Virus record (IMG/VR): IMGVR_UViG_3300022924_000005
Span: 1-48,352 of that record
Length of the DNA stretch: 48,352 nucleotides
Direction: 5' to 3' (one strand)
DNA from: a virus
Each line of letters opens with the position of its first letter. The first letter of the stretch is position 1. The notes under the pieces were generated by a model. That model did no database searches. It saw only the letters and a list, made by a program, of their open reading frames with translations, and was not told where the DNA came from. A program made the translations under genes and the position numbers. Of the stretch, positions 4,407-47,822 are shown one piece after another.

Positions 4407-4442
4407 ATTTAACAACTTTCAGGGGTTTATTACAATGGTCTA
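4407..4442 (-). promoter_or_regulatory. Late-type promoter for the tail adaptor unit
   Basis: On the minus strand, TAGACC (4437-4442) is followed by one base and TTGTAA as -35 (4430-4435), a 17-base spacer and TTAAAT as -10 (4407-4412). The TAGACC-N-TTG arrangement matches the other late-arm promoters. It overlaps the end of the repeat-rich tail gene. Confidence 0.6.
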
Positions 4443-6275
4443 CTTAAATCGAGGCTTGTCGCTAATAATCAATTCTACGGGAGAATTATAGTCGGGAGAT
4501 GAGAATTTCGGCTTTTCACTCGAAACCTGAACAACTACGCGTTCTTCAACTATATTTGCAATTACCTTATCCTGTAAGGTGTTGATTATTGGTTGGTCGC
4601 CTTGACTGAATCGTAACACCGTATCGATGGTGTGTGATACTGATTTCGGCTTAAACAGGACCGTATCGATGGTGTGAGTTTTAGTAGCTCGCTTCCAGAA
4701 TACTGCATCAATTGTATGGGTACGAATACCGCCACGCTTAATGAATGTATCGATCGTATGTGTGCGAGTAAAGCTCTTTCGGAGAACTGTGCTAATCGTG
4801 TGAGTACGGAGATTGATCTTCTTCAGGACAACATCGATAGTGTGTGTACGAGTAAATCGTTTCTTTAGGAATGTATCTAGTGTATGGTTACGACTCATTC
4901 CAGTTTTTAGGATCGTATCGATGGTGTGTGACTTCGTCAATCGCTTTAGTAAGAATGTATCTAGCGTATGAGTACGAGTATACTGCTTCTTAAAGATCGA
5001 GTTAATAGTGTGAGTCTTTAGAACTCGTTTCTTCAGGAATGTATCTACTGTATGAGTGCGAGTAAATCGCCTAGACAGTACGGTATCGATGGTATGAGTA
5101 AGTGATCGAGTCTTTCGTAAGAGCGTGTCGATAGTGTGGAACTTATTAGCTCCGGGTTTATACATATACGTATCAAGCGTGTGAGTACGAATACGAACAG
5201 CCTTAAACAGGGTATCAATAGTATGTGTTTTAACATACGACTTACGAAGAAGCGTATCAATGCTATGGGTACGGGTAGATCGATTTAATAGGAACGTATC
5301 TAACGTATGGGTCTTGGTCGCAGACTTCTTTAAGATCGTATCTACGGTATGAAGTATAGGAATACGACGCTTAATAATCGTATCAATGGTGTGAGTACGG
5401 CTATTTGTCTTTTTCTTGAAAGTATCAAGAGTGTGGGTGACTGTTCGTGATTTACGCTTGAACGTATCGATAGTATGAGTACGGGTGTAGCGTTTTTTCT
5501 TGAACGTATCGATAGTATGGGTCTTAGGGTAAGAGAAGGTAAATGGAGTCGATCCAAGTCCACCATAGTCTTGACCAACATATCCCATACCCCAACCACC
5601 GGGATAGACGAAGCTGTAAGTAGTCGTATCCGGTTGCACACGAAGGTTCGTGTCTACCGAGTGAACGATGGGCTTAGCCAGTGGCGTAACTACAAGTTCA
5701 CGAATAGCGATAGCACTTAGGTTTAGGTCGCGAGGAGGATTGCCTGGGGTGAGGGTGATATTATAAGTTCCAATCGAACTGAACACACCATATGCACTAA
5801 CAATACTTCCAAAGAGGACGCTTTGATTAAGATTTATTCCATTATTAAAGCTGGCACCGCTAGATCCACCTACTCCACCGACGGAATTATCAACACCTCC
5901 AGCAACGATAATGGAACCAACAGAGGTGGTATCCGTGGCTGCGTTAGTAGTAACCGAACTTGCACTTGATGCGCTAGTATTTGCCCATAATCTGTCTACG
6001 GGGTTCGCTGTGTCAACCCCAGAAAACTCCCTAATATTGGCAATAACATTATTTCCGTTTACATCGACGATGGTATAGCTAGAACTAGAGGACGTTACCA
6101 GTCTATAATACAGGACACCATAGCCTGGGATGGGACTACTTCGTATCCAGTTAGAATCCGTTGGCGTAACATTTGTAGTAAGAATTAGAATATTCCCCAC
6201 CACAGTTGGTGAGGTCATATTTACAGTAGCTGGCTGGGCTATTGCCGAGGCTGATTGTACAAATGCTAATGCCAT
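4440..6275 (-). CDS. Repeat-rich tail fibre-like protein, 611 aa
   Basis: Virion adhesin or fibre candidate. The N-terminal about 210 residues form a Ser/Thr/Val-rich beta-sandwich-like domain (the order NIREFSGVD then IIVAGGVDN is typical of phage LamG/ConA-like modules). From about residue 250 the protein has 22 tandem units of 14 residues (one of 15) with core THTIDTxLKKxxTR; a degenerate copy (HSVDTNLR) precedes them. The units are strongly basic, with 3-5 Lys/Arg each. A short acidic-to-basic tail follows. It is last in the 9.3-4.4 kb fibre unit. Similar HTxDx repeats occur in other phage structural proteins as far as I recall, but their fold is unknown to me. Confidence 0.65.
   Translation of the reverse strand: MALAFVQSASAIAQPATVNMTSPTVVGNILILTTNVTPTDSNWIRSSPIPGYGVLYYRLVTSSSSSYTIVDVNGNNVIANIREFSGVDTANPVDRLWANTSASSASSVTTNAATDTTSVGSIIVAGGVDNSVGGVGGSSGASFNNGINLNQSVLFGSIVSAYGVFSSIGTYNITLTPGNPPRDLNLSAIAIRELVVTPLAKPIVHSVDTNLRVQPDTTTYSFVYPGGWGMGYVGQDYGGLGSTPFTFSYPKTHTIDTFKKKRYTRTHTIDTFKRKSRTVTHTLDTFKKKTNSRTHTIDTIIKRRIPILHTVDTILKKSATKTHTLDTFLLNRSTRTHSIDTLLRKSYVKTHTIDTLFKAVRIRTHTLDTYMYKPGANKFHTIDTLLRKTRSLTHTIDTVLSRRFTRTHTVDTFLKKRVLKTHTINSIFKKQYTRTHTLDTFLLKRLTKSHTIDTILKTGMSRNHTLDTFLKKRFTRTHTIDVVLKKINLRTHTISTVLRKSFTRTHTIDTFIKRGGIRTHTIDAVFWKRATKTHTIDTVLFKPKSVSHTIDTVLRFSQGDQPIINTLQDKVIANIVEERVVVQVSSEKPKFSSPDYNSPVELIISDKPRFK
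4600..5526 (-). repeat. 22-copy 42-bp coding tandem repeat
   Basis: Array of 42-bp units (one 45-bp) encoding the HT[IVL]DT motif. The protein core is nearly invariant, but third codon positions vary between units (gtatcgat, gtatctag, gtatcaat and so on), so the array is old and selected at protein level rather than newly expanded. Boundaries are approximate to a few bases. Confidence 0.9.
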
Positions 6276-6286
6276 GTCGTACTACA

Positions 6287-6649
6287 CTACGACGTTGGCC
6301 GTCGTCCTACAGCGTACCAGAGTACGGTTAAGTTAGGGCTAAGAACACCTAAAAGGTTATTCGCCTGAAAGGTAAATCCGGTTGTACTAATAGACTTAAT
6401 TGAAGAAGTACCAAGTGTACTTCCAAGAATACCGCCCATAACAAATGGCGGTGTATCAAAAGGCTGGGGGAAGGTTACGGTGACAGTACCACTAGTACTT
6501 AGCGCAGAACCAAAGAAGCTTTGCATATTTTTGCGCTCTTCGGTATAGTTGTTAGTACCTGGAACGGTGAAGTCGTTAGGATCTCCACCCTGGCGCATAC
6601 GCACCTGGCCTGACAGTAGTTCATCTGCTGATACTTTAGTTTCTGGCAT
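6287..6649 (-). CDS. Putative fibre-associated structural protein, 120 aa
   Basis: Hypothetical virion protein. It starts with MPETKVSADELLSGQVRM and continues with a short linker and a beta domain (TVTFPQPFDTPPFVMGG) of the kind found in H-type lectin-like or gp53-like C-terminal fibre domains. It sits between a 118-aa and the 611-aa fibre-type gene, 2 bases after the former's stop. Role inferred from sequence style and neighbours. Confidence 0.6.
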   Translation of the reverse strand: MPETKVSADELLSGQVRMRQGGDPNDFTVPGTNNYTEERKNMQSFFGSALSTSGTVTVTFPQPFDTPPFVMGGILGSTLGTSSIKSISTTGFTFQANNLLGVLSPNLTVLWYAVGRRPTS

Positions 6650-6651
6650 GA

Positions 6652-7008: not shown

Positions 7009-7063
7009 GATTAACCCCTATTGCCTTCTGGGCAGAATAATTTTGATTTGTTTGTTATTTTCA

Positions 7064-8718: not shown

Positions 8719-8768
8719 GTGGATTGTATTCCTTTTTCCCATTGTATTGGGTTAGATTGTAAGTTATT

Positions 8769-9308: not shown

Positions 9309-9344
9309 GATTATTTATTTCTTTCTAATTTAAAACTACCCCAC

Positions 9345-9380
9345 ATTATAGGGGGTAGAGTCGTTTCATTCAAGGGTCTA
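9345..9380 (-). promoter_or_regulatory. Late-type promoter for the fibre unit
   Basis: Minus strand: TAGACC (9375-9380), one base, TTGAAT -35 (9368-9373), exactly 17 bases, perfect TATAAT -10 (9345-9350). This is one of the best members of the late family. The TAG of TAGACC is also the stop codon of the glycosyltransferase-like gene. Confidence 0.8.
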
Positions 9381-9980
9381 TAGAATAAACTCTCGATGCC
9401 ATACTTTAAGTGATTCTGAATTTGATTTAATCTTATAAGGTTCGTTATTCCTGTTATCATGATTTTCTGGAGCATAATAGGTTGATAGTGGATTAAACTC
9501 GATCCGTAGTCCGTTTGACCAGAACTTATCCGACAGTATAACTGTCTTATATAGGGTTCCACGCTTAAAATTAATTGCGTATTTTTTCAGTGCGCTTACT
9601 CGAATGATAGATCCGTAAAAGTGTCCAATCGATACAGGGTAAGATTCATCACCGCTATCGTCAATTGCTTCAAGTGCTACGTCGTTGTCGTAGGAATATC
9701 CGTATCGTCCAGCCAGTTCGTCATAATCTACGGGTGTTGCCACCATCGCGAGTTTTCTGTAACTTGGCCTCTGTAAGTATACGTCTAATGAGCTTCTTAG
9801 GCTGCCTGAAGCAAACCCTGAGTCTGCTTCGAGGAAAACGATAAAAGCACCAGATGCTACTTCTAGTGCTTTAGCCTCATCTTTGAGGGGGATTATTTCG
9901 TAGTCGATTCCGTCTAATTCTTTGTCTATGCTTTCCCATTGTGCCTTTTGCAGGAATGGGACAACTACTGTGAGTATCAT
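9378..9980 (-). CDS. Glycosyltransferase family 2-like protein, 200 aa
   Basis: Looks like a compact GT-A fold transferase. Seen: N-terminal strand LTVVVPFLQ, then DEAKALEVASGAFIVFLEAD at residues about 33-53, matching the (A)xNxGLxxAxGxYIxFLDxDD block of GT2 enzymes, with the metal-binding DxD changed to EAD. A later GSIIRVSALKKYAINF resembles the acceptor-side GxxxxxR region. The usual length is 220-330 aa, so this is minimal. It overlaps the upstream 95-aa gene by 4 bases. It might modify a virion protein, host surface or DNA; with the altered DxD it could also be inactive. Confidence 0.55.
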   Translation of the reverse strand: MILTVVVPFLQKAQWESIDKELDGIDYEIIPLKDEAKALEVASGAFIVFLEADSGFASGSLRSSLDVYLQRPSYRKLAMVATPVDYDELAGRYGYSYDNDVALEAIDDSGDESYPVSIGHFYGSIIRVSALKKYAINFKRGTLYKTVILSDKFWSNGLRIEFNPLSTYYAPENHDNRNNEPYKIKSNSESLKVWHREFIL

Positions 9981-10264: not shown

Positions 10265-10277
10265 CTATTGCCTTTCT

Positions 10278-10307: not shown

Positions 10308-10312
10308 GTAGT

Positions 10313-10582: not shown

Positions 10583-10584
10583 TA

Positions 10585-11313: not shown

Positions 11314-11349
11314 ATTATAGGTGTTGAGATTAAAATTATCAACGGTCTA
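11314..11349 (-). promoter_or_regulatory. Late-type promoter downstream of the capsid gene
   Basis: Minus strand: TAGACC (11344-11349), one base, TTGATA -35 (11337-11342), 17 bases, perfect TATAAT -10 (11314-11319). It begins immediately after the intrinsic terminator of the capsid unit. Confidence 0.8.
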
Positions 11350-14075: not shown

Positions 14076-14112
14076 ATCCTATCTTATATTATCTATTATT
14101 TTCAACGGTCTA
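14076..14112 (-). promoter_or_regulatory. Late-type promoter for the head unit
   Basis: Minus strand: TAGACC (14107-14112), one base, TTGAAA -35 (14100-14105), then a weaker -10 (TAGGAT at 14076-14081, 18-base spacer). The TAGACC overlaps the 3' arm of a TCTAGC/GCTAGA hairpin at the end of the portal gene. Confidence 0.6.
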
Positions 14113-18522: not shown

Positions 18523-18558
18523 ATCATAGCAAAAGGTATATACATATTCAATGGTCTA
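18523..18558 (-). promoter_or_regulatory. Late-type promoter for the packaging unit
   Basis: Minus strand: TAGACC (18553-18558), one base, TTGAAT -35 (18546-18551), 17-base spacer, TATGAT -10 (18523-18528). It is placed immediately after an intrinsic terminator that ends a short upstream leader, so the late arm is insulated from the leftward early-type promoters. Confidence 0.75.
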
Positions 18559-18559
18559 G

Positions 18560-18666
18560 GAAAAGAAAAGAACCCAAGGCGTTCGCTACGAGGGTTCTGT
18601 ATATTCTTATTGTGAACTTGACCACCCGAGTGTATAAGTTCAAGAGAGTTTTAGGACCGTCTCTAT
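18560..18666 (-). ncRNA. Short leftward leader RNA (about 105 nt)
   Basis: Bounded by an early-type promoter and an intrinsic terminator, with no start-codon ORF of note. It can fold a TGAACTT/AAGTTCA hairpin (18606-18643 region) before the terminator stem and carries GACGGTCC near its 5' end, complementary to GGACCGTC in the leader made from the promoter 320 bases upstream. Either a small regulatory RNA or an attenuated leader; I cannot tell which. Confidence 0.5.
18561..18598 (-). terminator. Intrinsic terminator between early-type leader and late promoter
   Basis: Minus-strand stem AGAACCC / GGGTTCT (18592-18598 with 18569-18575), 16-base loop, followed by TTTTCTTTTCC. It separates the leftward leader promoters from the late-type promoter at 18523-18558. 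Confidence 0.75.
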
Positions 18667-18672
18667 ACTTAC

Positions 18673-18701
18673 ATCTTAGCACAGGCTATTTCATTTGTCA
18701 A
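18673..18701 (-). promoter_or_regulatory. Leftward early-type promoter 1
   Basis: Minus strand: TTGACA -35 (18696-18701), 17 bases ending TGTGC, TAAGAT -10 (18673-18678). The TGTGC next to the -10 places it in the same class as the rightward early promoters, not in the TAGACC class. Confidence 0.75.
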
Positions 18702-18989
18702 TAGTATTCTCACTTATTTTTTAGTACTCAAAGTAGTCCCGATTTTCTTACGTGTAACAGCGGGACCGTTAATCAATCAAGTAATACCTAATCAAAGGGC
18801 GAGCGATGCTAATAGCGGAGCTAAAGAATCGATTATCTTATGATGGTATGTTTATTAAAGTACAGGGGTTCACGGAGTAGAACAGATTAGTGCAATACGA
18901 GCTTTACGATAGCCTAAAACGCTGAATGCATTTACCAGGACAGTTTATACTCTTACCTGGAAGCCATACATAGGGACGGTCCAAGAGTT
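18702..18989 (-). ncRNA. Possible leftward leader RNA from promoter 2
   Basis: About 290 bases between the two leftward early-type promoters with no usable reading frame. Potential structures on the minus strand: CCAGG/CCTGG near the 5' end and GTCCCG/CGGGAC (around 18735-18767), plus GGACCGT pairing with ACGGTCC in the same transcript. No U-tract follows, so transcription probably continues into the next leader and its terminator. Existence of the RNA is inferred from the promoter only. Confidence 0.35.
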
Positions 18990-18995
18990 ATATTC

Positions 18996-19024
18996 ATCAT
19001 AGCACACCGTGTTTTAAATGTCAA
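18996..19024 (-). promoter_or_regulatory. Leftward early-type promoter 2
   Basis: Minus strand: TTGACA -35 (19019-19024), 17 bases ending TGTGC, TATGAT -10 (18996-19001). Near-consensus in every element, but no gene follows for more than 500 bases. Confidence 0.75.
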
Positions 19025-19789: not shown

Positions 19790-19823
19790 AAGGGTAGGAC
19801 ATTAAACAAAGGGGCACAGCATT

Positions 19824-19952
19824 ATGACAAACCGCACACGAACACAGCTACACAATCAAGCAATAGAAAGCGCATCAGAGCTACTCGCCATTAGTGGTGT
19901 ATTTAGTGAAGAGCGTCTATCTAACCAACTAACTGCAACATGGAGCCAATAA
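19824..19952 (+). CDS. Small early protein, 42 aa
   Basis: Starts MTNRTRTQLHNQAIESASEL after a good AAAGGGG site, directly downstream of the first early promoter. Polar, largely helical, no membrane segment. Not recognised; first-expressed phage proteins of this size often act on host enzymes, but nothing in the sequence shows that here. Confidence 0.6.
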   Translation: MTNRTRTQLHNQAIESASELLAISGVFSEERLSNQLTATWSQ

Positions 19953-19956
19953 CACT

Positions 19957-20139
19957 ATGAGTCACAATAACCAACTAACAGTAAAGCGCCACCGTAAAGA
20001 GTTATCCGATATGATTATAGACATCATGCAAGATGAGAATGTAAGCTTACTACAGGCTTATGTCAAACTAGCCGGCATGGTTACGTCAGATGAGGTCATC
20101 AACCTTACAAAAGATAAGATTAAAGAGATGCAATCATAA
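19957..20139 (+). CDS. Small early protein, 60 aa
   Basis: Helical basic/acidic protein (MSHNNQLTVKRHRKELSDMI and onwards, ending DKIKEMQS). It follows the 42-aa gene after 4 bases, and its TAA overlaps the next ATG (TAATG). Unrecognised. Confidence 0.65.
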   Translation: MSHNNQLTVKRHRKELSDMIIDIMQDENVSLLQAYVKLAGMVTSDEVINLTKDKIKEMQS

Positions 20140-20204
20140 TGATCTGGTTAACAACTGAACTACAACGCATCAAAGCAACCTGGAACAGTGACTGCTCACT
20201 ATGA
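20139..20204 (+). CDS. Possible micro-ORF, 21 aa
   Basis: MIWLTTELQRIKATWNSDCS plus Leu. Its start overlaps the previous stop (TAATG) and its TGA overlaps the next ATG (ATGA), the coupling arrangement used by the neighbouring genes, which is the main argument that it is translated. Confidence 0.4.
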   Translation: MIWLTTELQRIKATWNSDCSL

Positions 20205-20311
20205 GTATCATACAAGTCGCAACACGTATCGCTATCTACATCGCATTTATTATCATCGTCATTGGATCCGTAAGTCTGGGGTTGCTGATCGCACAAACAC
20301 TAACAGTATAA
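20201..20311 (+). CDS. Small membrane protein, 36 aa
   Basis: Single hydrophobic helix covering most of the sequence (IAIYIAFIIIVIGSVSLGLL). Starts inside the stop of the 21-aa frame. Probably inserts in the host inner membrane; function unknown. Confidence 0.55.
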   Translation: MSIIQVATRIAIYIAFIIIVIGSVSLGLLIAQTLTV

Positions 20312-20324
20312 AAGGAGCCAAGTT

Positions 20325-20429
20325 ATGTTCACATCACTTGATTCAATAAGTATCAGTCTCGCATTGATTGGAATTGGTCTACTGATCATCGCCATCGTGC
20401 TAGAAAGACTAAACCTTAAAAAGAAATAG
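20325..20429 (+). CDS. Small membrane protein, 34 aa
   Basis: One transmembrane helix (ISLALIGIGLLIIAIVLERL) with a basic C-terminal KKK, predicting N-out/C-in. A strong AAAGGAG is placed before the ATG. Function unknown. Confidence 0.6.
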   Translation: MFTSLDSISISLALIGIGLLIIAIVLERLNLKKK

Positions 20430-20452
20430 CAATGCGTTGATCGCTCAGATTA

Positions 20453-20481
20453 TTGATCCACCAAGGACAATATGCTAGTGT
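20453..20481 (+). promoter_or_regulatory. Weak rightward early promoter
   Basis: TTGATC -35 (20453-20458), 17-base spacer ending TGC, TAGTGT -10 (20476-20481). Spacing fits the early class but both hexamers are imperfect. Confidence 0.4.
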
Positions 20482-20532
20482 AAGAGTACGGCCGTGAATG
20501 GATAAGTAAATATAAATGAGGAGTATGAAACC

Positions 20533-20697
20533 ATGACTCAACCTTATATCAATCAATCACAAGCTACAGTTAAAACGGAAGCACTCAACAAAGTACTAAG
20601 CATTGTATGGAATGAACTAGACGAACAGAAACAAGAGGCAGTGCGACAAGCACTAAGAGACAATAGAGTGAAGGTAGATAACAACGATCAACCATAA
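20533..20697 (+). CDS. Small early protein, 54 aa
   Basis: MTQPYINQSQATVKTEALNK start, then a helix and a polar C-terminus. GAGGAG is upstream; an intrinsic terminator follows 9 bases after the stop, so this gene ends the first early unit. Unrecognised. Confidence 0.6.
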   Translation: MTQPYINQSQATVKTEALNKVLSIVWNELDEQKQEAVRQALRDNRVKVDNNDQP

Positions 20698-20705
20698 ATA
20701 GCATT

Positions 20706-20727
20706 AAAGCCCTTCGGGGCTTTTTTG
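20706..20727 (+). terminator. Intrinsic terminator of the first early unit
   Basis: AAAGCCC (20706-20712), TTCG tetraloop, GGGCTTT (20717-20723) and a run of T. Textbook rho-independent terminator. Confidence 0.9.
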
Positions 20728-21037
20728 TTTATTTCAAATAAAAGATGACCTTACTATCAACTCATGTATTCAAACTGCCTTACAGGGCCTTAGGATGCGT
20801 CGTTATTTCCATTCTGCCGCAGATCAATAGGGGTGGAGATTAAAATAACACGTTTTAGCTTAAAAGATGAGTACTTATCCAACTTAGCATAATCTTTATA
20901 AAATCTATTGCATTATGAGCTGATCCGTGCTATTATTAATACATAAGCAAAGACAACCACTGCACCACAACATAGAGCAGTAACAGTCACCAAGCTTATA
21001 CATCTAAATAAGTAACACGAATAGGGGCAAAGATATT
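20728..21037. other. Intergenic region with one promoter
   Basis: About 310 bases between the terminator and the next small gene. Apart from the promoter at 20908-20936 and an untranslated leader of about 95 bases after it, I see no ORF or strong hairpin on either strand. Confidence 0.5.
20908..20936 (+). promoter_or_regulatory. Rightward early promoter
   Basis: TTGCAT -35 (20908-20913), 17-base spacer ending CGTGC, TATTAT -10 (20931-20936). It drives the run of small genes from 21038 to 23379. Confidence 0.7.
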
Positions 21038-21160
21038 ATGGTTAAAAAGATTACAGTTAAGCAGATCAAGACATCAAGCGTAGCAAAGGTATACACCGAA
21101 AGCTACAACCCAGACCGAAACAGTAAAGTAAAACCACTAACCACAATTCTATTCTACTAA
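21038..21160 (+). CDS. Small basic protein, 40 aa
   Basis: MVKKITVKQIKTSSVAKVYT start; strongly basic, no Cys. AGGGGC lies upstream. It is the first gene after the 20.9 kb promoter. Unrecognised. Confidence 0.55.
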   Translation: MVKKITVKQIKTSSVAKVYTESYNPDRNSKVKPLTTILFY

Positions 21161-21190
21161 GAATATAATTAACGAAAGACTAACACAAAC

Positions 21191-21328
21191 ATGTACGTAA
21201 ACTACTACAATAAAGAAACAAAGCGCCAGTACAATAAGAAAGCCCTGATTAAATGGTGCAAGGCAACCCTAGAGGTTACAGTATTATTGGTCATTATGGC
21301 AGCATTATCAATCGCATCTAATGCATAA
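21191..21328 (+). CDS. Small membrane protein, 45 aa
   Basis: Basic N-terminus (NKETKRQYNKKALIKW) followed by one hydrophobic helix (VTVLLVIMAALSIAS): an N-in, C-out single-pass protein by the positive-inside rule. Function unknown. Confidence 0.5.
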   Translation: MYVNYYNKETKRQYNKKALIKWCKATLEVTVLLVIMAALSIASNA

Positions 21329-21342
21329 GGGGGAAAAAGATT

Positions 21343-23209: not shown

Positions 23210-23379
23210 GCTATGCAGAAGATTATGGATATGATAGCTATGATCCAGGGGATGAGATTAACGAACAGACCGCCAGAGATATTACCTCGTTGTTATGGGA
23301 ATTTTTCAGTGACAATAAGGGTGTTAGCTGGGACACGCTAAGTATGTTTGACTTTTATAAGTGGTTAAGAAACAGATAG
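23206..23379 (+). CDS. Small hypothetical protein, 57 aa
   Basis: GTG start; very acidic Tyr-rich N-terminus (SYAEDYGYDSYDPGDEI) followed by an aromatic helical region (SLLWEFFSDNKG, FDFYKWLRNR). Last rightward gene before the leftward island; its stop overlaps the end of the convergent 92-aa gene by 15 bases. Confidence 0.55.
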   Translation: MSYAEDYGYDSYDPGDEINEQTARDITSLLWEFFSDNKGVSWDTLSMFDFYKWLRNR

Positions 23380-23643
23380 ATTACTAGGACATTCTTTATT
23401 CATACATATGCCAGCTACGCGTATTGATTCACATAGATTACAGGGCACAACATCTAAAGCCTGGAGGGTCACAATGTCCTTCCGGGCTTTCTTTGCTCTT
23501 GTGGTTTGAGGAGTCTTCTTAGTTTGCTGTACGTGGACATCATAGACGGTGCCTTTGTATACAATCTCAAAGACCATGCCGGTTTTAAGCATGATCTTGA
23601 ATAGAGGGAATATGTTTTTCTTAAACTGAGTGAGGCTAAGCAT
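23365..23643 (-). CDS. Putative zinc-binding protein with Phd-like N-terminus, 92 aa
   Basis: The first 40 residues (MLSLTQFKKNIFPLFKIMLK and a following beta pair ending VYDVHVQ) resemble the start of Phd/YefM-type antitoxins, which bind DNA. The C-terminal CNLC...C....C (C-x2-C-x8-C-x4-C) looks like a small zinc ribbon. Third gene of the leftward island, overlapping the small-terminase candidate by 8 bases. DNA binding is an inference; no toxin partner is seen. Confidence 0.5.
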   Translation of the reverse strand: MLSLTQFKKNIFPLFKIMLKTGMVFEIVYKGTVYDVHVQQTKKTPQTTRAKKARKDIVTLQALDVVPCNLCESIRVAGICMNKECPSNLSVS

Positions 23644-24190
23644 CTGGGAATATACTATTAAGCATACCGACTTCGTCTTTGTCGTGGATAGCTTGTAATA
23701 GAACCATTAAATTTTTCTTGTTCTCTTCTGGGTTAGTAGCGATAGAGGTTGGTCGGCCGGCTTCGATCTGTGACTGGTTAAACATCTCTTTAGATACGGT
23801 AGTAAGGTCTTTAATAGATATGTTGTTCATCTGTTCAATGTGTCGCTTCTGAGTAGCGTAGTCAGCAAAGTCAATAAGTCCGTCATCATACATCTGTTTT
23901 ACTTCGGCAATCTCTTTGGCTGCTAGTTCTTTGTTGTCTAGCTTTTCCTCTAGTTGTTTGCGAGCCTTGTCTAAGATCTTAGTTGCCTTAGATGTCTCAT
24001 GCACCACTAGTGAGGTCTTGATCTGCTCCAGAGCTGCGGTGTTACGCTGCTTAATATCAGTGATAGCTGACATACTAAGAGAAATGCCCTCTTGTGCGAG
24101 TGTATCAACGATACTAGAATAAGGATCACCCCTAGCAATAAGGGCAACGATTCTAACTTCTGTCTGTGTGTCGATCTTCCGTAGTGCCAT
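23636..24190 (-). CDS. Probable terminase small subunit (HTH), 184 aa
   Basis: Residues about 10-50 (RIVALIARGDPYSSIVDTLA, then SLSMSAITDIKQRN) read as a helix-turn-helix, followed by long helices. The segment ISIKDLTTVSKEMFNQSQIE then AGRPTSI matches the helix-plus-GxPT block frequent in phBC6A51-type small terminases, which recognise the packaging site. Length fits. GGAG precedes the ATG, which lies inside the KH gene. It is encoded far from terL but from a late-type promoter, consistent with a packaging role. Confidence 0.5.
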   Translation of the reverse strand: MALRKIDTQTEVRIVALIARGDPYSSIVDTLAQEGISLSMSAITDIKQRNTAALEQIKTSLVVHETSKATKILDKARKQLEEKLDNKELAAKEIAEVKQMYDDGLIDFADYATQKRHIEQMNNISIKDLTTVSKEMFNQSQIEAGRPTSIATNPEENKKNLMVLLQAIHDKDEVGMLNSIFPDA

Positions 24191-24425
24191 TGTCGTGCTC
24201 CTGTATTTGGATCTTAATTCTGTGCTTGCCGTCTATACCAACGACCTTTGCCAGTGTGCGTAGTGCATCTATGGTTGAACCATTGCGACCTAGTAACGAT
24301 GCGATACTAACGCCGTTTGGGTGGATAGTAATAACAGCGCCGTGTTCATCTTGAACGTGCGTTACTGTGGCTTTGTCGCCTAAGATTGTCTTTACCGATC
24401 CCTCTGAGAGTTCTATGCTATTCAT
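24153..24425 (-). CDS. KH-domain RNA-binding protein (KhpA-like), 90 aa
   Basis: Residues 30-76 form a KH core: a strand, then GVSIASLLGRNGSTIDALRT with the GxxG loop GRNG (46-49), a helix continuing LAKVVG, and a strand (KHRIKIQIQE). This matches KhpA/type II KH proteins, which bind RNA in many bacteria. A phage-encoded copy could act in post-transcriptional control or RNA chaperoning. First gene of the leftward island, 9 bases downstream of its -10 element, so its transcript has essentially no leader. Confidence 0.7.
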   Translation of the reverse strand: MNSIELSEGSVKTILGDKATVTHVQDEHGAVITIHPNGVSIASLLGRNGSTIDALRTLAKVVGIDGKHRIKIQIQEHDNGTTEDRHTDRS

Positions 24426-24433: not shown

Positions 24434-24469
24434 ATCATATAGTAGTGGATAACTTTCATCAATAGTCTT
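24434..24469 (-). promoter_or_regulatory. Late-type promoter of the leftward island
   Basis: Minus strand: AAGACT (24464-24469, a variant of TAGACC), one base, TTGATG -35 (24457-24462), 17-base spacer, TATGAT -10 (24434-24439). Same geometry as the late-arm promoters. Back-to-back with the rightward promoter whose -35 starts at 24471. Confidence 0.6.
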
Positions 24470-24470
24470 A

Positions 24471-24499
24471 TTGACTTATGGGTGTGAGTGTGCTATGAT
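24471..24499 (+). promoter_or_regulatory. Rightward early promoter
   Basis: TTGACT -35 (24471-24476), 17-base spacer ending GTGTGC, TATGAT -10 (24494-24499). Drives 24523-27667. Confidence 0.8.
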
Positions 24500-25771: not shown

Positions 25772-26779
25772 ATGTATGATGTTGTGATTGTCGGATCAGG
25801 GCCAGCAGGTCTATCCGCTGCAGTAAATGCTGCAAGTGAGGGATTAAAAACCCTAGTAATGGATATGAACACTGACTTTGGTGGGCAAGCCTCAACATCT
25901 ACCATGATTGAGAACTATGCCGGCTTCCCCGATGGTGTAACTGGTCGTGATTTAACTCAGCGCATGTTGGACCAGACATATAAATTTGACGTTGAGTTCA
26001 TGGCACCGGCACGAGTATGTGGACTGGAACGAGAAGAAGACCGTATTAGAGTCTTAGATGATTCTGGTATGTATGTTGACACTCGATCAGTAGTGCTTGC
26101 CATGGGCGTACAATATCGTCGCCTAAATGTACCGAGTGTTGCTAAGTATCTTGGTCGCGGTATCTCTTATGGATCACCAAGTGTCAGTACTAAGTACCGA
26201 GGTAAGCATTTTGCGGTAGTTGGTGGAGCTAACTCAGCCGGTCAAGCTGCTATGCATCTATCACAATACCCGGATTCAACAGTGAGACTGATTGTTCGTG
26301 GTGATACTATCGAAGACAAGATGAGTCACTACCTTATTGAACGCCTAGAGGCAGCCGATAACGTAACTATCCACTATAATAGTGAGATTACTGACGTAGC
26401 TGGTAGTGATAGGTTGACACAAGTATACATTAAGGATAAAATATACACAGAAGGCTTTGATATGGATAATATATTCATCCTTATCGGAGCTATTCCACTC
26501 ACTAACTGGATGGAAGGTATCATAGAACGTGACGATCATGGATTCTTACTTACTGGACGAGATCTTAAACGATCGGCAGTGAAAGAGTTTGAGAATAGTT
26601 GTGGTCGCAAGCCATTTGACCATGAAACATCAATGCGAGGTGTCTTTGCATCGGGTGATATACGAGCTAACTCGGTCAAACGGGTAGCCAGTGCAGTTGG
26701 TGAAGGCGCAATGACAATACCAGAAGTACATAAAGCCGTGCAAATAGCACGAGATAGGGAACGAAGTGAAATATTATAG
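25772..26779 (+). CDS. Thioredoxin-reductase-like FAD/NAD(P)H oxidoreductase lacking the CxxC, 335 aa
   Basis: Two-dinucleotide-binding flavoprotein: FAD site GSGPAG (8-13) and GGQASTSTMIENYAGFPDG (37-55), NAD(P) site GGANSAGQAA (151-160), C-terminal FAD block ASGDIR followed by KRVASAVGEGA. Where thioredoxin reductases carry CATC (about 134-137) this protein has GSPS, so it cannot reduce thioredoxin by the usual dithiol route. The layout (NSAGQAA, VRGD, ETS-x-x-GVFASGD, KRVASAVGEG) matches the cysteine-less class seen fused to cyclic-nucleotide domains. Start is preceded by AAAGGGG. Substrate unknown; an auxiliary redox gene. Confidence 0.85.
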   Translation: MYDVVIVGSGPAGLSAAVNAASEGLKTLVMDMNTDFGGQASTSTMIENYAGFPDGVTGRDLTQRMLDQTYKFDVEFMAPARVCGLEREEDRIRVLDDSGMYVDTRSVVLAMGVQYRRLNVPSVAKYLGRGISYGSPSVSTKYRGKHFAVVGGANSAGQAAMHLSQYPDSTVRLIVRGDTIEDKMSHYLIERLEAADNVTIHYNSEITDVAGSDRLTQVYIKDKIYTEGFDMDNIFILIGAIPLTNWMEGIIERDDHGFLLTGRDLKRSAVKEFENSCGRKPFDHETSMRGVFASGDIRANSVKRVASAVGEGAMTIPEVHKAVQIARDRERSEIL

Positions 26780-27674: not shown

Positions 27675-27703
27675 TTGACTTTTAGAACAAAGTGTGCTAT
27701 ATT
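27675..27703 (+). promoter_or_regulatory. Rightward early promoter of the structured leader
   Basis: TTGACT -35 (27675-27680), 17-base spacer ending GTGTGC, TATATT -10 (27698-27703). Near-consensus; what follows is more than 500 bases without a gene. Confidence 0.85.
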
Positions 27704-30388: not shown

Positions 30389-30417
30389 TTGACTATTAAC
30401 GCAATGTGTGCTATACT
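30389..30417 (+). promoter_or_regulatory. Rightward early promoter for the DNA-metabolism unit
   Basis: TTGACT -35 (30389-30394), 17-base spacer ending TGTGTGC, TATACT -10 (30412-30417); GAAAGGG and the ATG of the 86-aa gene follow at 30447. Drives nuclease, SSB and resolvase genes. Confidence 0.85.
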
Positions 30418-36949: not shown

Positions 36950-36978
36950 TTGACTTCCCGTACAATCTGTGCTACTAT
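36950..36978 (+). promoter_or_regulatory. Rightward early promoter for lysozyme and exonuclease unit
   Basis: TTGACT -35 (36950-36955), 17-base spacer ending TGTGC, TACTAT -10 (36973-36978). The predicted start of transcription is only about 5 bases before the ATG at 36990. Confidence 0.8.
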
Positions 36979-38647: not shown

Positions 38648-38866
38648 ATGATTGAACAATTTGCAGCATCAACAGAATCGCCAGAAAAGAAAAATCTGGC
38701 GAAGGAACTCTTGAATGATGAATTAACTTTAGAGCAAAAGCTAGAACTTATTGATCAAGCTATGGCCGATCGTGTAGCAGAGGCTCGTGACGAAGCAGAG
38801 AACCTTGGTATTCCTTATGTGCCAGTTGATCCATCAGACGCCTTCCAGTGTATCGGATGTCAGTAG
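38648..38866 (+). CDS. Small protein with C-terminal CxxC, 72 aa
   Basis: Acidic helical protein (LAKELLNDELTLEQKLELID, ADRVAEARDEAENLG) ending FQCIGCQ. AAAGGA upstream. Its end overlaps the start of the glutaredoxin gene, suggesting the terminal CxxC may be a partner or substrate of that glutaredoxin (inference). Confidence 0.6.
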   Translation: MIEQFAASTESPEKKNLAKELLNDELTLEQKLELIDQAMADRVAEARDEAENLGIPYVPVDPSDAFQCIGCQ

Positions 38867-39111
38867 TGAAGGTAACGGTATACGGAACAACTAACTGTGC
38901 GTTTTGCAAAACAGAGCGCCAGTGGTTGGACCGAGAAGGCGTTGACTACGAATACGTCAACCTCGATGAAGATGAACAAGCCCGTATGTTTATGCATCAA
39001 ACACTCGATATCACCACCGTACCTGTGACAATGGTGACTCGTAAACCAGAAGATGTAGAAATAGTACTAGGATTCGATAGATTAAGATTAGCAATGGTGA
39101 TTGGATTATAA
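38857..39111 (+). CDS. Glutaredoxin / NrdH-redoxin-like protein, 84 aa
   Basis: Thioredoxin-fold dithiol carrier. KVTVYGTTNCAFCKTERQWL with active site C14-A-F-C17, then DYEYVNLDED, the cis-Pro segment TTVPVTMV and a C-terminal GFDRLRL. Length and order match NrdH/glutaredoxin. No ribonucleotide reductase is present in the phage, so it would serve a host enzyme. I use ATG 38857; GTG 38866 overlapping the previous stop is also possible. Confidence 0.85.
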   Translation: MSVVKVTVYGTTNCAFCKTERQWLDREGVDYEYVNLDEDEQARMFMHQTLDITTVPVTMVTRKPEDVEIVLGFDRLRLAMVIGL

Positions 39112-40779: not shown

Positions 40780-40780
40780 A

Positions 40781-41579: not shown

Positions 41580-41595
41580 AATTTATATTACTTTT

Positions 41596-41631
41596 ATATT
41601 GACAGCTTTTCGGGCTTATCGCAACTGTCTA
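41596..41631 (-). promoter_or_regulatory. Late-type promoter for the lysis unit
   Basis: Minus strand: TAGACA (41626-41631), one base, TTGCGA -35 (41619-41624), 17 bases, CAATAT (41596-41601) as a weak -10. The TAG is the stop codon of the 1485-aa gene. Confidence 0.5.
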
Positions 41632-44600
41632 TTCGCCCTTCAATTTTTCATCAATGAAGTCAGAGATACCGTTTCCACCAGTAAGAGTACGACTAAGCGT
41701 GTTTACTGAACCAACTACTGGGATCGCGTTAAGCACTGTACGGGTATTAACACCACCATATTTGTTAATAGGGTTAAGTGGTGAGTTTAATCCACCACGA
41801 ACCTTGGAGTTCTGGTTCCATGGGTTAACGAGGCTGAATCCAGTAGGGTCTGTCGATGCAACTGAATCACCAATGGTAGGCGCTTCTTTTTCATTACCAA
41901 GTGCCGTACTTGTAGTAGATGCCATACCATCCCAAGCGAACTGGATAGCAGCAGTAGCAGCCCACATAGCAGATAATGCAGCAACACGCTTAGGACCGCG
42001 AAGACTAGATAGACCTTTAATAGTCTTATCAATCGTTTTGACGTTATCTTCGACGAGTTTAATGTGTGCATTAATGACTTCAGTAGTAGGTGCATCTGGA
42101 CCACCCTTACCATCTTTAACTGCAGCACCGACATCTTTTAATCCCTTGAGGTATGCTTTGTATTCACCACGCATATTAGCAATGCTAGTAGCACGAGGAT
42201 CACCACGTTGAATAACGTCTAATGCACGAGCATCTTTAATCTGGGCAGTATCACGAATGTAGTTGCTTACTCCTAGTGGGAATCGCATAAACATTGTGAT
42301 TGCACGTTTAAATGCCGAGCTATCACGAAGGAACTCAGGACGAGCTAGGGAGTTAGCACCAAAGGCAGTGTTATTAACCTGGATATTGCCAGTACGTTCA
42401 GCGAATGCAACAGCTTCTGGGTCTTTAAGTGCAGTCTTGACGGCTTCTTTGGGAGTTTTACCTGCAGCAATAGCCTCGGTATAAGCTTTACTTTGAGAGA
42501 TACCCTGTGCAAATGCCTGTCGGAATGGAGCTTGAACTGATTTCTGTTCTGAGAAGCGGTTGATGTCGTACTTACGGGCAAGTTCACCGGCACCACTACT
42601 TCGCAGCATCTCACCGGCACGAGTCGCAGGATCTGCGCCACCAGCAATGTCACCAGATACTGTTTGTTCACCGAACCAGATGTTCTTGTCTACAATCTTA
42701 AGATCGTCTTCATCAAATAGCTTAGCTACTGAACGACCTTCTGGAGTAATATCAGCTGCAGCGAGGAGCTTCTGGGTAAGTGCAAACGCGGCATTCTTTG
42801 GGTTATTCCAAAGGAAGGCGCTATAGATGTTATTCTGCAGCCCCTTAATCCACTTATCGGCTGTGCTTGATGATCCTTGAGAGATACCGTTAGCTAGCAT
42901 GGTGTTGAGGTACTTAATACCGTCATTAAACTGACCTGTATTAGCACGAACATAAGCTGGTACTGTTTCGAGTGCATCAGCAAAGTCGTCAAGTACGGGG
43001 GTAAAGGCAATATGATTAACCATTCCGTCTACGTAGCGAGGCAGGACCTCTAAGATATTGTTGTTGGTAAGTTCTGGTTTTTCATCAAGTGTACGTTCCA
43101 TTGCGTTACCAGAGACAACACGAGTCTTCTTATCCGTAAGCCCGTTAGCGAGGTAGCTAGGTGCTTCTGAGTAATCTTTAAGCATTGTCCATGGTGAGTA
43201 GTCTTCTCGCACCGGCATACCAGCATCGATCATGCGTTGTTTTATGTTGTCAAATACTGAAACGATGTTGTCGTATAATTCGCGAGTCTGTGGGTCGCTG
43301 ATATATTTCTCTACGTTAGCACGATCTTCAAGTGCCTTAACGATGTTCGCGCCGGTTTGGATACGAGCAGTCTCTGTTTTGCCTGAGATGTTCTTGGAAA
43401 GCTTTTGAACATTGATCATTGTAGGGCGGAGTTCAGTCTTGATGTCTAACTTAACTTTACTGCCCCGGATTAACGATTCAGCCGTTCGAGCACCTGCTTC
43501 ACCAAGTGTACGCGTAGCATAACCAATAGAGTCGCTTAGGTAGCGACCAATAGATTTAGTGGTTTTCTCTGATGCATCCGATCCGACTTTACCTTGAGTA
43601 AGATATGTAACCGCTTTGGCCACTTCTGGATCAAGATCATTAGTATTAAGGCCGATTTCGTCGGCTAGTTCTTTATTCACATTACCAATAACAGCAAGTT
43701 CACCTTCTTTGGCAGTCTTTGGTTTACTAGATTTAACCTGTCCAAGTGCTTCGGCAGCACGTTCTTCTGGAGTAAGTTTCATACTAATCTCACCAATATC
43801 CGCAGTAGGGGTAACTTCAGCGGCCATTGCTGGTTGTCGAGCTGGTTCTTTGGGTGTTGCACTGGTATTTGATGAACCCCGAACAGATCCATCTGCATTA
43901 ATATCTAGCGCAAAATCTTCTACACTATCGGCTACTTTCCCGACGATACTCCGCTTGTCATACTCCGAAGTTCTTCGATCCGCTCCGTTGAATCCACCGC
44001 CCTCTACCTTGCCATAAAATTCGTTTAGTCTTTTCAGTGCGTCTGGCTTACCAAAGAAGTTGTCTATCTTGTCAGCAAGTTTGTAAAGTATGTCAACAAA
44101 TCCACTCGGAAGTCCAGATACATTAGCATAATGAGCAGCCTTGTCAGCTAAACTAAGACTACCTCTTGTTTTACCATCTTTCAAGAAGTCGATAAACCTG
44201 TTGGCAATTTCTTCTTCTGCGGCTACGCGCCAGTTAGGACGATAACCCTGTTTTGCATATTTAGAAACCAAGCTAGCTTTACCACCAGCTGATTTAACAG
44301 CATCACTGTACAGGCCCTTAATTTCATCATCTGACAGGAATTGCCCAATAGCTTTATGGATTGATTCGTGATTATATGTATCTAATTGAGCATCACCCTT
44401 CGCCAAACGAATCATGTCATCAGCATACCGGTAATCACCAAGCGTACCGTCTTTTTCTTTTTCGGTATACATAACTCTATCATCATCAAATCGCTTACGA
44501 TGTATAGCTACAATATCATTTAATTCTTCGGGCACCACTGTGGCATCTTGCTTCGTACCAGAAATAATGTCAGATGCCCTGTTCTGAGGGGTGGGCTCAG

Positions 44601-46086
44601 CAACCTTGAATACACCAGGCTTACGCTCTAGTGGTACAACAGTTTCGCTTGGAACGTCAACAAAGCTAAGTTCTGCATTGTCATCACGACCATTAATCCA
44701 GTTAGATAGTCTGTCTGGATCTTGGAAGTAGTTAGTAGAAGCTTGATCAGTATTGTCGTTTGTCTGATATAGACGAGTAAGCCCCTCTTGTAGAGGAGTT
44801 TGATCAGATTCAGCTTTAAGCGCTTCAACCTTAGCCTGCGTAGGTGCATCAACAGGAGCAAATGAAGCCGGCACATCAGCAGAAATAACCGGAGCTTCTG
44901 GTGTTACTATTTGTGCAGCATCTCGTGAACGTAGGTATTCCGCTGGGTTATCAGAAACTGCAGCAGCTTCAAGGTCGTTAATTGGATTCTGGCCAGGAGT
45001 TATGGTGTTAGAATCAACAATTGGGCGTTCTGGAGCTTGGAATGGGTTAGCACTCACCTCCTGGGTTGGAACGATGTTTTCTGAAACTGACGCAGGTTGT
45101 TTTGGAGTAGTAACTTCAGGACCCTTAATAATAGCATCGGTTAGCTTAACCGCCTCATCATCCGTCATAGATAATGCACGAGTTGCCATTGCTGGATCGT
45201 TATCAAGAACTTGCTTAAGTCGAGTTTGCTGTTCAGGTGTAAGTCGTTGGCTAGCCTGGAAGAATGGAAGCTCTGCAACTTTAATGTCATCCATTGGAGT
45301 AACATCTCGTCCACGGCTTTTAGCAAGAGCACCAGATAGTGATCCAAGTAGTCCACCAATACCAGCACCTGCAACGGCACCGACAGTAGCATTTCCTGCA
45401 ATATCAAGTGGAGTTACATTGGCACCTTCTTCTTGAACGGCACCAAGTCCACCATATCCAGCACCAAGAACGGCACCTGACTTAGCGGCCTGAGCACCAC
45501 CTTGTGGGTTAACAATAGTATTGACAGCACGTTCAGCGGCACCGGGAACACGAGCAGCTTCAGAAGCACGTTCTGCAGCTCTAGCACCCTTAATAACAGC
45601 GCCACCAGCACCAGCCGTAAGAACATCGAGCCCAATAGAGCCAACCGCAGCAGCAGCCTTTACTGGATCAGTAGCTTCTGCCACCTGGGCCTGTCGCTCT
45701 TGGAATGCAGCATCTTGTTCGTCGCCAATACCGGTAATAGCTTGGATGGCTTTACTATAGCGATTTTTGTCTTCGTCTGTAGTCGCCTTCTTTAGCTTTT
45801 CGCCAAGTTGACGTATAGTTTCGGTATCTTCTTTTTGAGCAGCCGATTGTTCGTTGCGTGACTTCTGAGCACCGCCAGTAGCTTCGTTAATAACCTCTCC
45901 GTAACCTTTACCGACACGGTCAACTGCAGAAGTAGCACCTTCATATAATGTCTTGGCTACGTCTCCGGCTATCTTTGGCTGTAGTTCAGCGGCTTGTTTT
46001 GCGATACCCCAAAAAGAGCGATTGAAGCGTTTAGACTTCTCGCCTTCAGTTTGTTGTTTAATATCAGCACGGTTGTAAAAGGCCAT
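41629..46086 (-). CDS. Giant internal/ejection virion protein with zincin motif, 1485 aa
   Basis: Probable DNA-ejection protein analogous to T7 gp16 in size and position. Seen: hydrophobic Gly/Ala-rich segment at about 210-250 (GNATVGAVAGAGIGGLLGSL) that could enter membranes; HESIH at about residue 571 with a downstream helix containing AAEEEIANRFIDF, a HExxH-type zinc metallopeptidase signature; long helical regions; and a C-terminal hydrophobic stretch (AALSAMWAATAAIQFAWDG). Many phages place a peptidase or transglycosylase in such proteins to breach the envelope. No lysozyme motif found here. Confidence 0.7.
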   Translation of the reverse strand: MAFYNRADIKQQTEGEKSKRFNRSFWGIAKQAAELQPKIAGDVAKTLYEGATSAVDRVGKGYGEVINEATGGAQKSRNEQSAAQKEDTETIRQLGEKLKKATTDEDKNRYSKAIQAITGIGDEQDAAFQERQAQVAEATDPVKAAAAVGSIGLDVLTAGAGGAVIKGARAAERASEAARVPGAAERAVNTIVNPQGGAQAAKSGAVLGAGYGGLGAVQEEGANVTPLDIAGNATVGAVAGAGIGGLLGSLSGALAKSRGRDVTPMDDIKVAELPFFQASQRLTPEQQTRLKQVLDNDPAMATRALSMTDDEAVKLTDAIIKGPEVTTPKQPASVSENIVPTQEVSANPFQAPERPIVDSNTITPGQNPINDLEAAAVSDNPAEYLRSRDAAQIVTPEAPVISADVPASFAPVDAPTQAKVEALKAESDQTPLQEGLTRLYQTNDNTDQASTNYFQDPDRLSNWINGRDDNAELSFVDVPSETVVPLERKPGVFKVAEPTPQNRASDIISGTKQDATVVPEELNDIVAIHRKRFDDDRVMYTEKEKDGTLGDYRYADDMIRLAKGDAQLDTYNHESIHKAIGQFLSDDEIKGLYSDAVKSAGGKASLVSKYAKQGYRPNWRVAAEEEIANRFIDFLKDGKTRGSLSLADKAAHYANVSGLPSGFVDILYKLADKIDNFFGKPDALKRLNEFYGKVEGGGFNGADRRTSEYDKRSIVGKVADSVEDFALDINADGSVRGSSNTSATPKEPARQPAMAAEVTPTADIGEISMKLTPEERAAEALGQVKSSKPKTAKEGELAVIGNVNKELADEIGLNTNDLDPEVAKAVTYLTQGKVGSDASEKTTKSIGRYLSDSIGYATRTLGEAGARTAESLIRGSKVKLDIKTELRPTMINVQKLSKNISGKTETARIQTGANIVKALEDRANVEKYISDPQTRELYDNIVSVFDNIKQRMIDAGMPVREDYSPWTMLKDYSEAPSYLANGLTDKKTRVVSGNAMERTLDEKPELTNNNILEVLPRYVDGMVNHIAFTPVLDDFADALETVPAYVRANTGQFNDGIKYLNTMLANGISQGSSSTADKWIKGLQNNIYSAFLWNNPKNAAFALTQKLLAAADITPEGRSVAKLFDEDDLKIVDKNIWFGEQTVSGDIAGGADPATRAGEMLRSSGAGELARKYDINRFSEQKSVQAPFRQAFAQGISQSKAYTEAIAAGKTPKEAVKTALKDPEAVAFAERTGNIQVNNTAFGANSLARPEFLRDSSAFKRAITMFMRFPLGVSNYIRDTAQIKDARALDVIQRGDPRATSIANMRGEYKAYLKGLKDVGAAVKDGKGGPDAPTTEVINAHIKLVEDNVKTIDKTIKGLSSLRGPKRVAALSAMWAATAAIQFAWDGMASTTSTALGNEKEAPTIGDSVASTDPTGFSLVNPWNQNSKVRGGLNSPLNPINKYGGVNTRTVLNAIPVVGSVNTLSRTLTGGNGISDFIDEKLKGE

Positions 46087-46087
46087 G

Positions 46088-46780
46088 TTAGCCTCCTATA
46101 CTAAGGTTACTCACCGGACGTCGTGCGGTTGCATCGGTTTGTGCTTGTGAGAAGCGGTCTTTGTAGGCGCTTCGGAAGGTATTGACGTATTGGTCCCAAG
46201 TTTTGATTCCGTTATCTTTAACGAATTCTTTAAGTCCTGGACGTTCTTTGTAGAACTTCTCTAGTCCATCTTTGTCACCAGTACTCATAATCTGACCAAG
46301 CGCCATAGTATCTTTGTAGTCATTAACAAAGTCAATATCAGCTGGATCTTGTGAGTCTTTAAGTGCATCTGCAATAGTGACGTTCTTAGCACGAGCGTAT
46401 TCATTAACCGAAATAGGCTTGCCTTCACCATTAAGGAATGTTTTACCACCAGCTTCGTTAAGTACAGCTTGGTAGTTAGCTGGGTCTTTAGTAGCGGCAA
46501 CACGTTCTTGACGAGCTGCATCTTGGCGCAGCATTGCTTCTTGGGCTGCTGCTGCGGCTTTACGAGCAGCTTCCGCGTCGTCAGCTTTTAGTTGTGAGTT
46601 AGCTGCAAATGGTTTACCTGCAGTTTGTGCAGCTGCGGCGATAAACTTAAGATTACCTAGATTCTGTAGGTTTGCGATTTGTCCTGCGTTCTCTGCGGTT
46701 TGGGCAGGAGAAGCACCCAGATTACTCCGGGTAGTTGCTGCCTGTATGATTGCTTGTGTGAATGGGTCTGCTGGGTTCAT
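46088..46780 (-). CDS. Putative internal virion protein, 230 aa
   Basis: Ala/Gln-rich helical protein (ADDAEAARKAAAAAQEAMLR, NVTIADALKDSQDPADIDFV), with 1 base to the giant ejection protein gene. Composition and order match the middle internal core protein (T7 gp15 position). Assigned by context. Confidence 0.6.
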   Translation of the reverse strand: MNPADPFTQAIIQAATTRSNLGASPAQTAENAGQIANLQNLGNLKFIAAAAQTAGKPFAANSQLKADDAEAARKAAAAAQEAMLRQDAARQERVAATKDPANYQAVLNEAGGKTFLNGEGKPISVNEYARAKNVTIADALKDSQDPADIDFVNDYKDTMALGQIMSTGDKDGLEKFYKERPGLKEFVKDNGIKTWDQYVNTFRSAYKDRFSQAQTDATARRPVSNLSIGG

Positions 46781-46784
46781 AATT

Positions 46785-47753
46785 CTATCCGTATACCTGT
46801 GCTGCTAGAGCAATATCTTGATCTCTGAGTCCCTGACCCTTTAGGCCAGCAAGCCAGGTCTGAATATCAGTATCGTAGATGTTATTAGTTGCGTTAAACA
46901 ATGCTGCTTGGCGTTCTGCTTCGTTGTCGAGGCGGAAGTCACGTTCGTCTTGTGCTTGCATAGCGATGAAGTCATTTAGCTGACGATCAAGGTTAGCCTT
47001 ACTTACGTCAGTAAGGGCGATGTTACGAACTTCTTTAGTACCAAGGTCCTCGAATGTACGAGTCTTAAATAGTTCTTGAGTTTGACGTTCATCTGTGAAG
47101 TCCTTGAGTTGAGCAGTACTCGCCTTATTACGATCAGATTGTAGCTTCTCTACTTGCTGAGCACCAAGTCCCGATTCAGTAAGCCCTGCATCAGCAACTG
47201 CACCACGAGCTTCACGGTTAGCAATATCAAACTGCTCACCTTCGCTAGACTGGAACTCGCCTTCATTGTACATACTTTTATCGATAGCACTTTGAACATC
47301 CTCGGTTGTACGAGTACGGTCAGTGTTTATATCGGCACGTAAGTTAGTGAGGTCAACATCTGCAGCAGTTTTACCGGCAGTGACGTCGGCTGTTTGCTGA
47401 CTACGTTGCAATGCATATCGTTCAAGTTGGTTGTTTAGTTTATCTTGGTAGACAGGGTTAACTGCACCAGTGGCCTTAGCCGTGGCCTTAGCTCGCATAT
47501 CAGCAGTATTGAGTGTGGGAAGTTTAGGCCGTGCAGCATTTTCTGCTTGCATAGCAGCAAGTTGGGCCTGAAGCAACTGAAGCTCCACCGAGTTCGATGG
47601 GGCTGTAGCAATAGTAGGAAGGTTATTAACCAAAGGCTTGTAGCCGGTTGGCATAGTCGGTGTCTTTACCTGACCAAGCCCCGATGCTGGAGCTTTGGCG
47701 GTACCAGTAAGCTTACCGATAGTATTATTATATAGATCGTCGAGGAATGCCAT
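46785..47753 (-). CDS. Putative internal virion protein, 322 aa
   Basis: Pro-rich N-terminal 60 residues, then continuous Gln/Ala/Asn-rich helix (VELQLLQAQLAAMQAENAAR, QTADVTAGKTAADVDLTNLR), likely a coiled coil. First gene of the three-gene internal protein unit, after a late-type promoter. Comparable with the first core or ejection proteins of podoviruses; low-complexity composition prevents a firm family. Confidence 0.6.
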   Translation of the reverse strand: MAFLDDLYNNTIGKLTGTAKAPASGLGQVKTPTMPTGYKPLVNNLPTIATAPSNSVELQLLQAQLAAMQAENAARPKLPTLNTADMRAKATAKATGAVNPVYQDKLNNQLERYALQRSQQTADVTAGKTAADVDLTNLRADINTDRTRTTEDVQSAIDKSMYNEGEFQSSEGEQFDIANREARGAVADAGLTESGLGAQQVEKLQSDRNKASTAQLKDFTDERQTQELFKTRTFEDLGTKEVRNIALTDVSKANLDRQLNDFIAMQAQDERDFRLDNEAERQAALFNATNNIYDTDIQTWLAGLKGQGLRDQDIALAAQVYG

Positions 47754-47786
47754 TTATATTTTCCGAGGTATTATTATTCTTTAGAT

Positions 47787-47822
47787 AGTATGCGTGATTA
47801 TAGGGGTTATAGCAAGGGTCTA
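47787..47822 (-). promoter_or_regulatory. Late-type promoter for the internal virion protein unit
   Basis: Minus strand: TAGACC (47817-47822), one base, TTGCTA -35 (47810-47815), 17 bases, CATACT (47787-47792) as -10; TACTAT at 19 bases is an alternative. It lies just after the stop of the 169-aa tail gene. Confidence 0.6.

Follow-up and report, generated by a model that had tools for sequence, protein, structure and literature searches.

The sequence TAGACC-N-TTG marks nearly all virion-gene promoters in the phage genome analysed here and in its close relatives. These promoters form a distinct late-type family, for which both the statistics and the conservation in relatives speak strongly; that the class is late we infer from gene content and promoter class. 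Taken as a whole, the observations are probably best explained by an activator box which works together with the host's housekeeping sigma and is recognised by a factor that the phage encodes.

The window, by which we mean the whole stretch of 48,352 nucleotides, is an entire IMG/VR record and holds a complete, circularly closed genome of ~48.2 kb. Its first 50 bases are repeated at 48226, with an end overlap of ~127 bases, and the genome thus closes on itself. A leftward virion and lysis arm runs from 18551 downward through the genome ends to 39599, while the rightward early arm also contains one small leftward operon (24425 to 23365). Relatives, designated G1 to G7, were gathered via terminase and capsid. 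G1 (15 kb) is mostly 95–97% identical to the window in DNA and G4 (49 kb) has overlapping ends, as does the window; G2 and G5 are two contigs from one metagenome, and G3 and G6 two contigs from another. The more distant G7 (52.6 kb; terminase 46%, capsid 47%), which has a related virion module, is the outgroup. The first 25 kb of the window had no DNA match in a phage collection, in which terminase and capsid found distant matches only. Terminase and thioredoxin reductase, compared with genome contigs for host identification, were without relatives there. The thioredoxin-reductase-like flavoprotein (25772-26779, +) and a glutaredoxin (38848-39111, +) are both phage-encoded.

The exact word TAGACCNTTG occurs six times in the window, against 0.40 occurrences expected under a Markov-1 model, and all six lie on the minus (late) strand directly upstream of leftward gene starts. 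When one mismatch is allowed, 11 occurrences are observed against 11.6 expected, i.e. the chance level, so that the exact word alone is significant by itself. A matrix built from 20 sites of the relatives, with the window's own sites left out, placed the six exact sites at ranks 1 to 6 and sites B and H (Table 1) at ranks 8 and 9. The single match between these groups, at rank 7, was intragenic, on the plus strand and at chance level, as defined by the best scores of 12 shuffled genomes (11.7–19.8). The count and the held-out ranks together rule out chance as the origin of the box. The weaker members, TAGACA at site B (41631) and AAGACT at site H (24469), owe their acceptance to the relatives, which have TAGACG or CAGACT in the same phase at the orthologous places. 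All eight minus-strand sites listed in a preliminary description of the window are present where it placed them, and the box recurs at orthologous places in related phages.

Table 1. Promoters and candidate regulatory genes in the window.
Feature	Coordinates	Strand	Elements or character	Genes headed, context
Site A	47787..47822	-	TAGACC 47817-47822; TTG 47813-47815; -10 CATACT 47787-47792	47753 to 46785 and following genes
Site B	41596..41631	-	TAGACA; TTG; -10 CAATAT	Unit 41579 to 39599, including M23 peptidase; TAG is stop codon of 41629-46086
Site C	4407..4442	-	TAGACC; -10 TTAAAT	Tail genes 3222-4397 and 1184-3220; TAG is stop codon of 4440-6275
Site D	9345..9380	-	TAGACC; -10 TATAAT	TAG is stop codon of 9378-9980
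Site E	11314..11349	-	TAGACC; -10 TATAAT	Right after terminator-like hairpin
Site F	14076..14112	-	TAGACC; -10 TAGGAT; 18-base spacer	13761, 12840, 12334 and major capsid 11409
Site G	18523..18558	-	TAGACC; -10 TATGAT	18312, 17834, terminase 16201, portal 14120; downstream of terminator-like hairpin
Site H	24434..24469	-	Weak member, AAGACT-N-TTG; -10 TATGAT	Leftward operon 24425 to 23365 in early arm; back to back with early promoter 24471
Early-class promoter	24471..24499	+	TTGACT-N17-TATGAT; TGTGC before -10	Conserved in G1, G2, G4
Early-class promoter	27675..27703	+	Sequence match to class	
Early-class promoter	30389..30417	+	Sequence match to class	
Early-class promoter	36950..36978	+	Sequence match to class	
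Leftward early-class promoter	18996..19024	-		Upstream of terminase unit
Second leftward early-class promoter	18673..18701	-	Sequence match to class	
92-aa basic protein	23365..23643	-	C..C-x8-C....C, putative zinc site	
HTH plus long-helix protein	23636..24190	-	Terminase-small-subunit-like (weak fold matches)	
KhpA/KhpB-type KH-domain protein	24153..24425	-	Pfam PF13083, 34.0 bits (cut-off 32.1)	

The geometry of the sites is that of a promoter. Over the eight sites the -10 match score has a single peak at offset 30 from the box start (6.12 against a background of 2.45, with a standard deviation of 0.57 for the mean of eight), which corresponds to a 17-base spacer after TTGNNN. The TTG of the box occupies the -35 position (-35 to -33 by the conventional numbering), and TAGACC extends from about -42 to -37. 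Two points of the preliminary description required adjustment here. Firstly, the spacing, given as identical throughout, is 17 bases at every site except F. Secondly, the three perfect or near-perfect -10 hexamers it counted become TATAAT at D and E and TATGAT at G and H, with weaker hexamers at A, B, C and F. Its remark that TAG doubles as the stop codon of the preceding gene in at least two cases holds for three (B, C and D). As A, E, F, G and H are not stop codons and the phase to the -10 is fixed, we rejected a role of the box as an RNA or stop-codon signal.

Compared with orthologues, the box is 94% identical, TTG 100% and the -10 88%, against 68% for the spacer and 54–58% for the flanks (54% for the 30 bases upstream). 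TAGACC is hence better conserved than the -10, and it also carries more information. Conservation in these promoters therefore extends beyond the -35 and -10, to which it would be limited in an ordinary housekeeping-sigma promoter, and the additional, non-sigma element stands at a fixed phase to both, as in an activator-dependent late promoter. No base upstream of the box is conserved, and there is thus no sign of a second half-site; neither such a half-site nor an inverted repeat near the box was seen in the alignment of sites.

Sites A, C and D are conserved in G4, G5 and G6, and F in G1, G3, G4 and G5. G is conserved in G1, G3 and G4 and reads TTGACC in G2, while the orthologous places of B carry TAGACG in G2, G4 and G6, and those of H carry TAGACG in G2 and CAGACT in G4. 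Site E was found in the window genome only.

Individual sites have features of their own. The -10 of D lies within the loop of a palindrome, CTACCCC..GGGGTAG (9335-9360, -; CTACCCC-CTATAATG-TGGGGTAG), whose pairing is kept in G4, G5 and G6 with both arms changed; the palindrome could act as a terminator for the unit before it and overlap the promoter, or it may function as an operator. At C, F and H the start codon follows the -10 after only 8–9 bases (starts 4397, 14066 and 24425, -), an arrangement kept in relatives, and the mRNAs should consequently be leaderless or nearly so. Box H adjoins the -35 of the divergent early promoter 24471 (24464-24476), with 1 base between them in the window and 10–11 bases in G2 and G4; a factor bound there might also influence early transcription. 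The gene that ends at site C (4440-6275, -) encodes a protein in which an 18-residue repeat (for example THTIDTFLKKRFTR) occurs ~22 times, and its relatives have a similar C-terminal end and wholly different repeats (ITGNARI in G4 and G6, NDSRAAVVTGR in G5). Its product looks like a repeat-swapped tail protein.

We propose that TAGACC-N-TTG, at about -42 to -33, would be the promoter element of the phage's late class, and that the -10 and the TTG at -35 would belong to the host housekeeping sigma. A phage-made factor would bind the asymmetric 10-bp box beside the sigma region 4 contact, or partly in its place, and so recruit host RNA polymerase to seven promoters along the leftward virion and lysis arm. 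The same factor may also recruit polymerase to the weaker site H, at the head of the small KH/HTH/zinc operon. A factor which reads the box appears to be the most economical explanation; that this factor is an activator, is encoded by the phage and acts late are readings of the sequence which we consider plausible. D and E, with a good -10 and TTGAAT or TTGATA at -35, might fire unaided. The preliminary description had likewise suggested a phage-encoded activator or sigma-appropriation factor. The distinct promoter family which this presupposes stands, whereas the phage origin of the factor has indirect support, from the confinement of the box to one clade and from the lack of a detectable RNA polymerase or sigma gene.

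The first of these arguments also bears on the main rival explanation, i.e. that a host-encoded activator or a host alternative holoenzyme reads the box and that the phage has adopted the signal of a host regulon. Two contigs from one other metagenome (L050 and L066) do show single TAGACC-N-TTGACA promoters. However, when IMG/VR was scanned for the box followed by a correctly spaced TATAAT, 80 stretches matched, whereas a control word matched at least 120. Of the matching IMG/VR records 44 were searched whole, and not one held a comparable family of sites. These results give no support to a promoter type of wide occurrence, and the element seems peculiar to this small clade of phages. G7, the outgroup with its related virion module, has no box, although its host may differ. 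On these grounds we regard a host factor as unlikely. A literature search for TAGACC in connection with phage promoters found nothing relevant.

An alternative sigma, or a sigma region 4 altered by the phage, could instead recognise the box as part of its own recognition sequence, in which case no separate activator site would exist. The box is contiguous with TTG, asymmetric and richer in information than the -10, all of which would suit recognition by sigma. On the other hand, the -10 and its 17-bp spacing from TTG are ordinary housekeeping-sigma features, and region 4 normally makes its contacts downstream of where the box lies. A Pfam scan of the early ORFs of at least 60 aa found no sigma domain among them, nor any RNA polymerase, MotA or AsiA. 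The plus-strand early region at 19820-21340 is crowded with ORFs of fewer than 60 codons. Recognition by sigma itself seems to us improbable.

A second promoter class in the window has no box. It consists of TTGAC(T/A)-N17 followed by a -10 that is preceded by TGTGC. Four of its members are on the plus strand and the other two on the minus strand ahead of the terminase unit; the relatives have counterparts. The alignment of promoters thus bears out the earlier statement that the rightward early promoters lack the element. Whereas the early class carries a full TTGAC -35, box promoters have a TTGAAA-like -35, a variable -10 and mostly no TG, the pattern to be expected if a factor supplies specificity to them.

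The two leftward members raise a third possibility, that the late genes are turned on mainly by antitermination, with transcripts from 19024 and 18701 reading past the terminator before G and the box promoters being constitutive or secondary. Site G lies ~140–470 bases downstream of these promoters; the intervening stretch before the terminase unit has a terminator-like hairpin but no ORF of 60 codons, and the arrangement of two promoters is kept in G3. A transcript from 18996..19024 (-) would accordingly contain no ORF of 60 codons and would reach the hairpin before site G. Antitermination nevertheless leaves unexplained both the invariant box before six further units and the new pair of box and hairpin at site E, and we consider it quite improbable as the principal mechanism. 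The region itself (18570-19024, -), ~400 bases without ORFs of 60 codons that end near the hairpin, resembles in part the corresponding regions of G3, which has two promoters, and G4, which has one; it is possibly a non-coding or antitermination leader RNA, and an Rfam search of the window gave no match. Lastly, the box as an operator, from which a repressor that silences the promoters early is removed or diluted late, is very unlikely: a site touching the -35 would suit repression, and sequence alone does not tell activation from repression, but the poor -10 at several box promoters (CATACT, CAATAT, TTAAAT, TAGGAT) suggests that help is needed rather than silencing.

If a phage-made activator reads the box, every lineage with the box should have kept it and G7, which lacks the box, should not encode it; many early genes have this distribution. 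Our best guess, a tentative one with a modest chance of being right, is the 92-aa product of 23365, one of the two candidates named previously. It has a net charge of +8 and four cysteines in a zinc-ribbon-like pattern, is 66–75% identical over the alignment in three lineages, has no match in G7, and its gene lies in the operon headed by box H, the weakest box although it heads the presumed regulator operon. It is a better guess than the other; its structure model, however, is poor (mean pLDDT 55.5) and a fold search gave nothing significant. A RelJ-type antitoxin chain, weakly similar at E about 4, is no more than a lead. We think it rather unlikely, though worth stating, that 23365 represents a new kind of small phage zinc protein which binds host sigma or RNA polymerase, reads TAGACC-N-TTG and redirects the holoenzyme to late genes, with MotA/AsiA-like logic and separate ancestry.

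The other earlier candidate, the RHH-like 17834, is a poor one: it is 33–38% identical in relatives (best BLAST hit), its presumed DNA-contacting strand varies (KKLIYI, KQMIYI, KSLIPI), and its gene belongs to the terminase unit, whose promoter itself carries the box. The product of 23636 is less likely as the activator, given a diverged relative in the box-less G7 and weak matches to small terminase subunits. Neither these two operon neighbours, 23636 and 23365, nor 24153 had relatives in the phage collection. The analysis maps the regulation of a group of uncultured phages that show a recognisable switch between early and late promoters but no recognisable phage polymerase or sigma gene. The box is so well defined and so well conserved that it could be used to fish for the factor.

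Several known systems offer partial parallels. The terminase is similar to those of podoviruses, e.g. Celeribacter phage P12053L (28% identity), which recalls T7-like podoviruses; unlike in those with their own RNA polymerase, no such gene was recognised here, and the promoters of the late class resemble those used by a housekeeping sigma. In class II activator-dependent sigma70 promoters, too, the activator site lies directly beside a weak -35 or overlaps it. Class II activator sites are typically symmetric and longer, for dimers, whereas the conserved part here is a single asymmetric 6+3 bp element. Lambda CII promoters have TTGC-N6-TTGC around the -35, and CII, a phage activator, contacts the -35 region while the -10 is kept, as we propose here; the alignment of all sites, however, shows one element only and no TTGC direct repeat.

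The parallel drawn in the preliminary description was to MotA-type activators. In T4 middle promoters the -10 is left to sigma and MotA recognises a box in the -35 region; that box, centred at -30 and ~13 bp upstream of the -10, replaces the -35 and tolerates changes, and the -10 is stringent (PMC2988021). The promoters described here similarly retain a host -10, as the single offset peak indicates, carry around the -35 a short box that is asymmetric and specific to the phage, and stand beside a separate early class without it. They differ in that the box ends 20 bp upstream of the -10, has its centre near -38 and keeps TTG at -35, in that the box is nearly invariant and the -10 variable, which reverses the stringent and lenient roles, and in that Pfam found no relative of MotA or AsiA among early ORFs of at least 60 aa. 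Given the differing geometry and reversed stringency, we do not claim membership in T4-type sigma appropriation, and the parallel is retained as an analogy only. Should the factor prove to be a small sigma-appropriating protein, it would represent an independent solution to the problem which T4 solves with MotA and AsiA.
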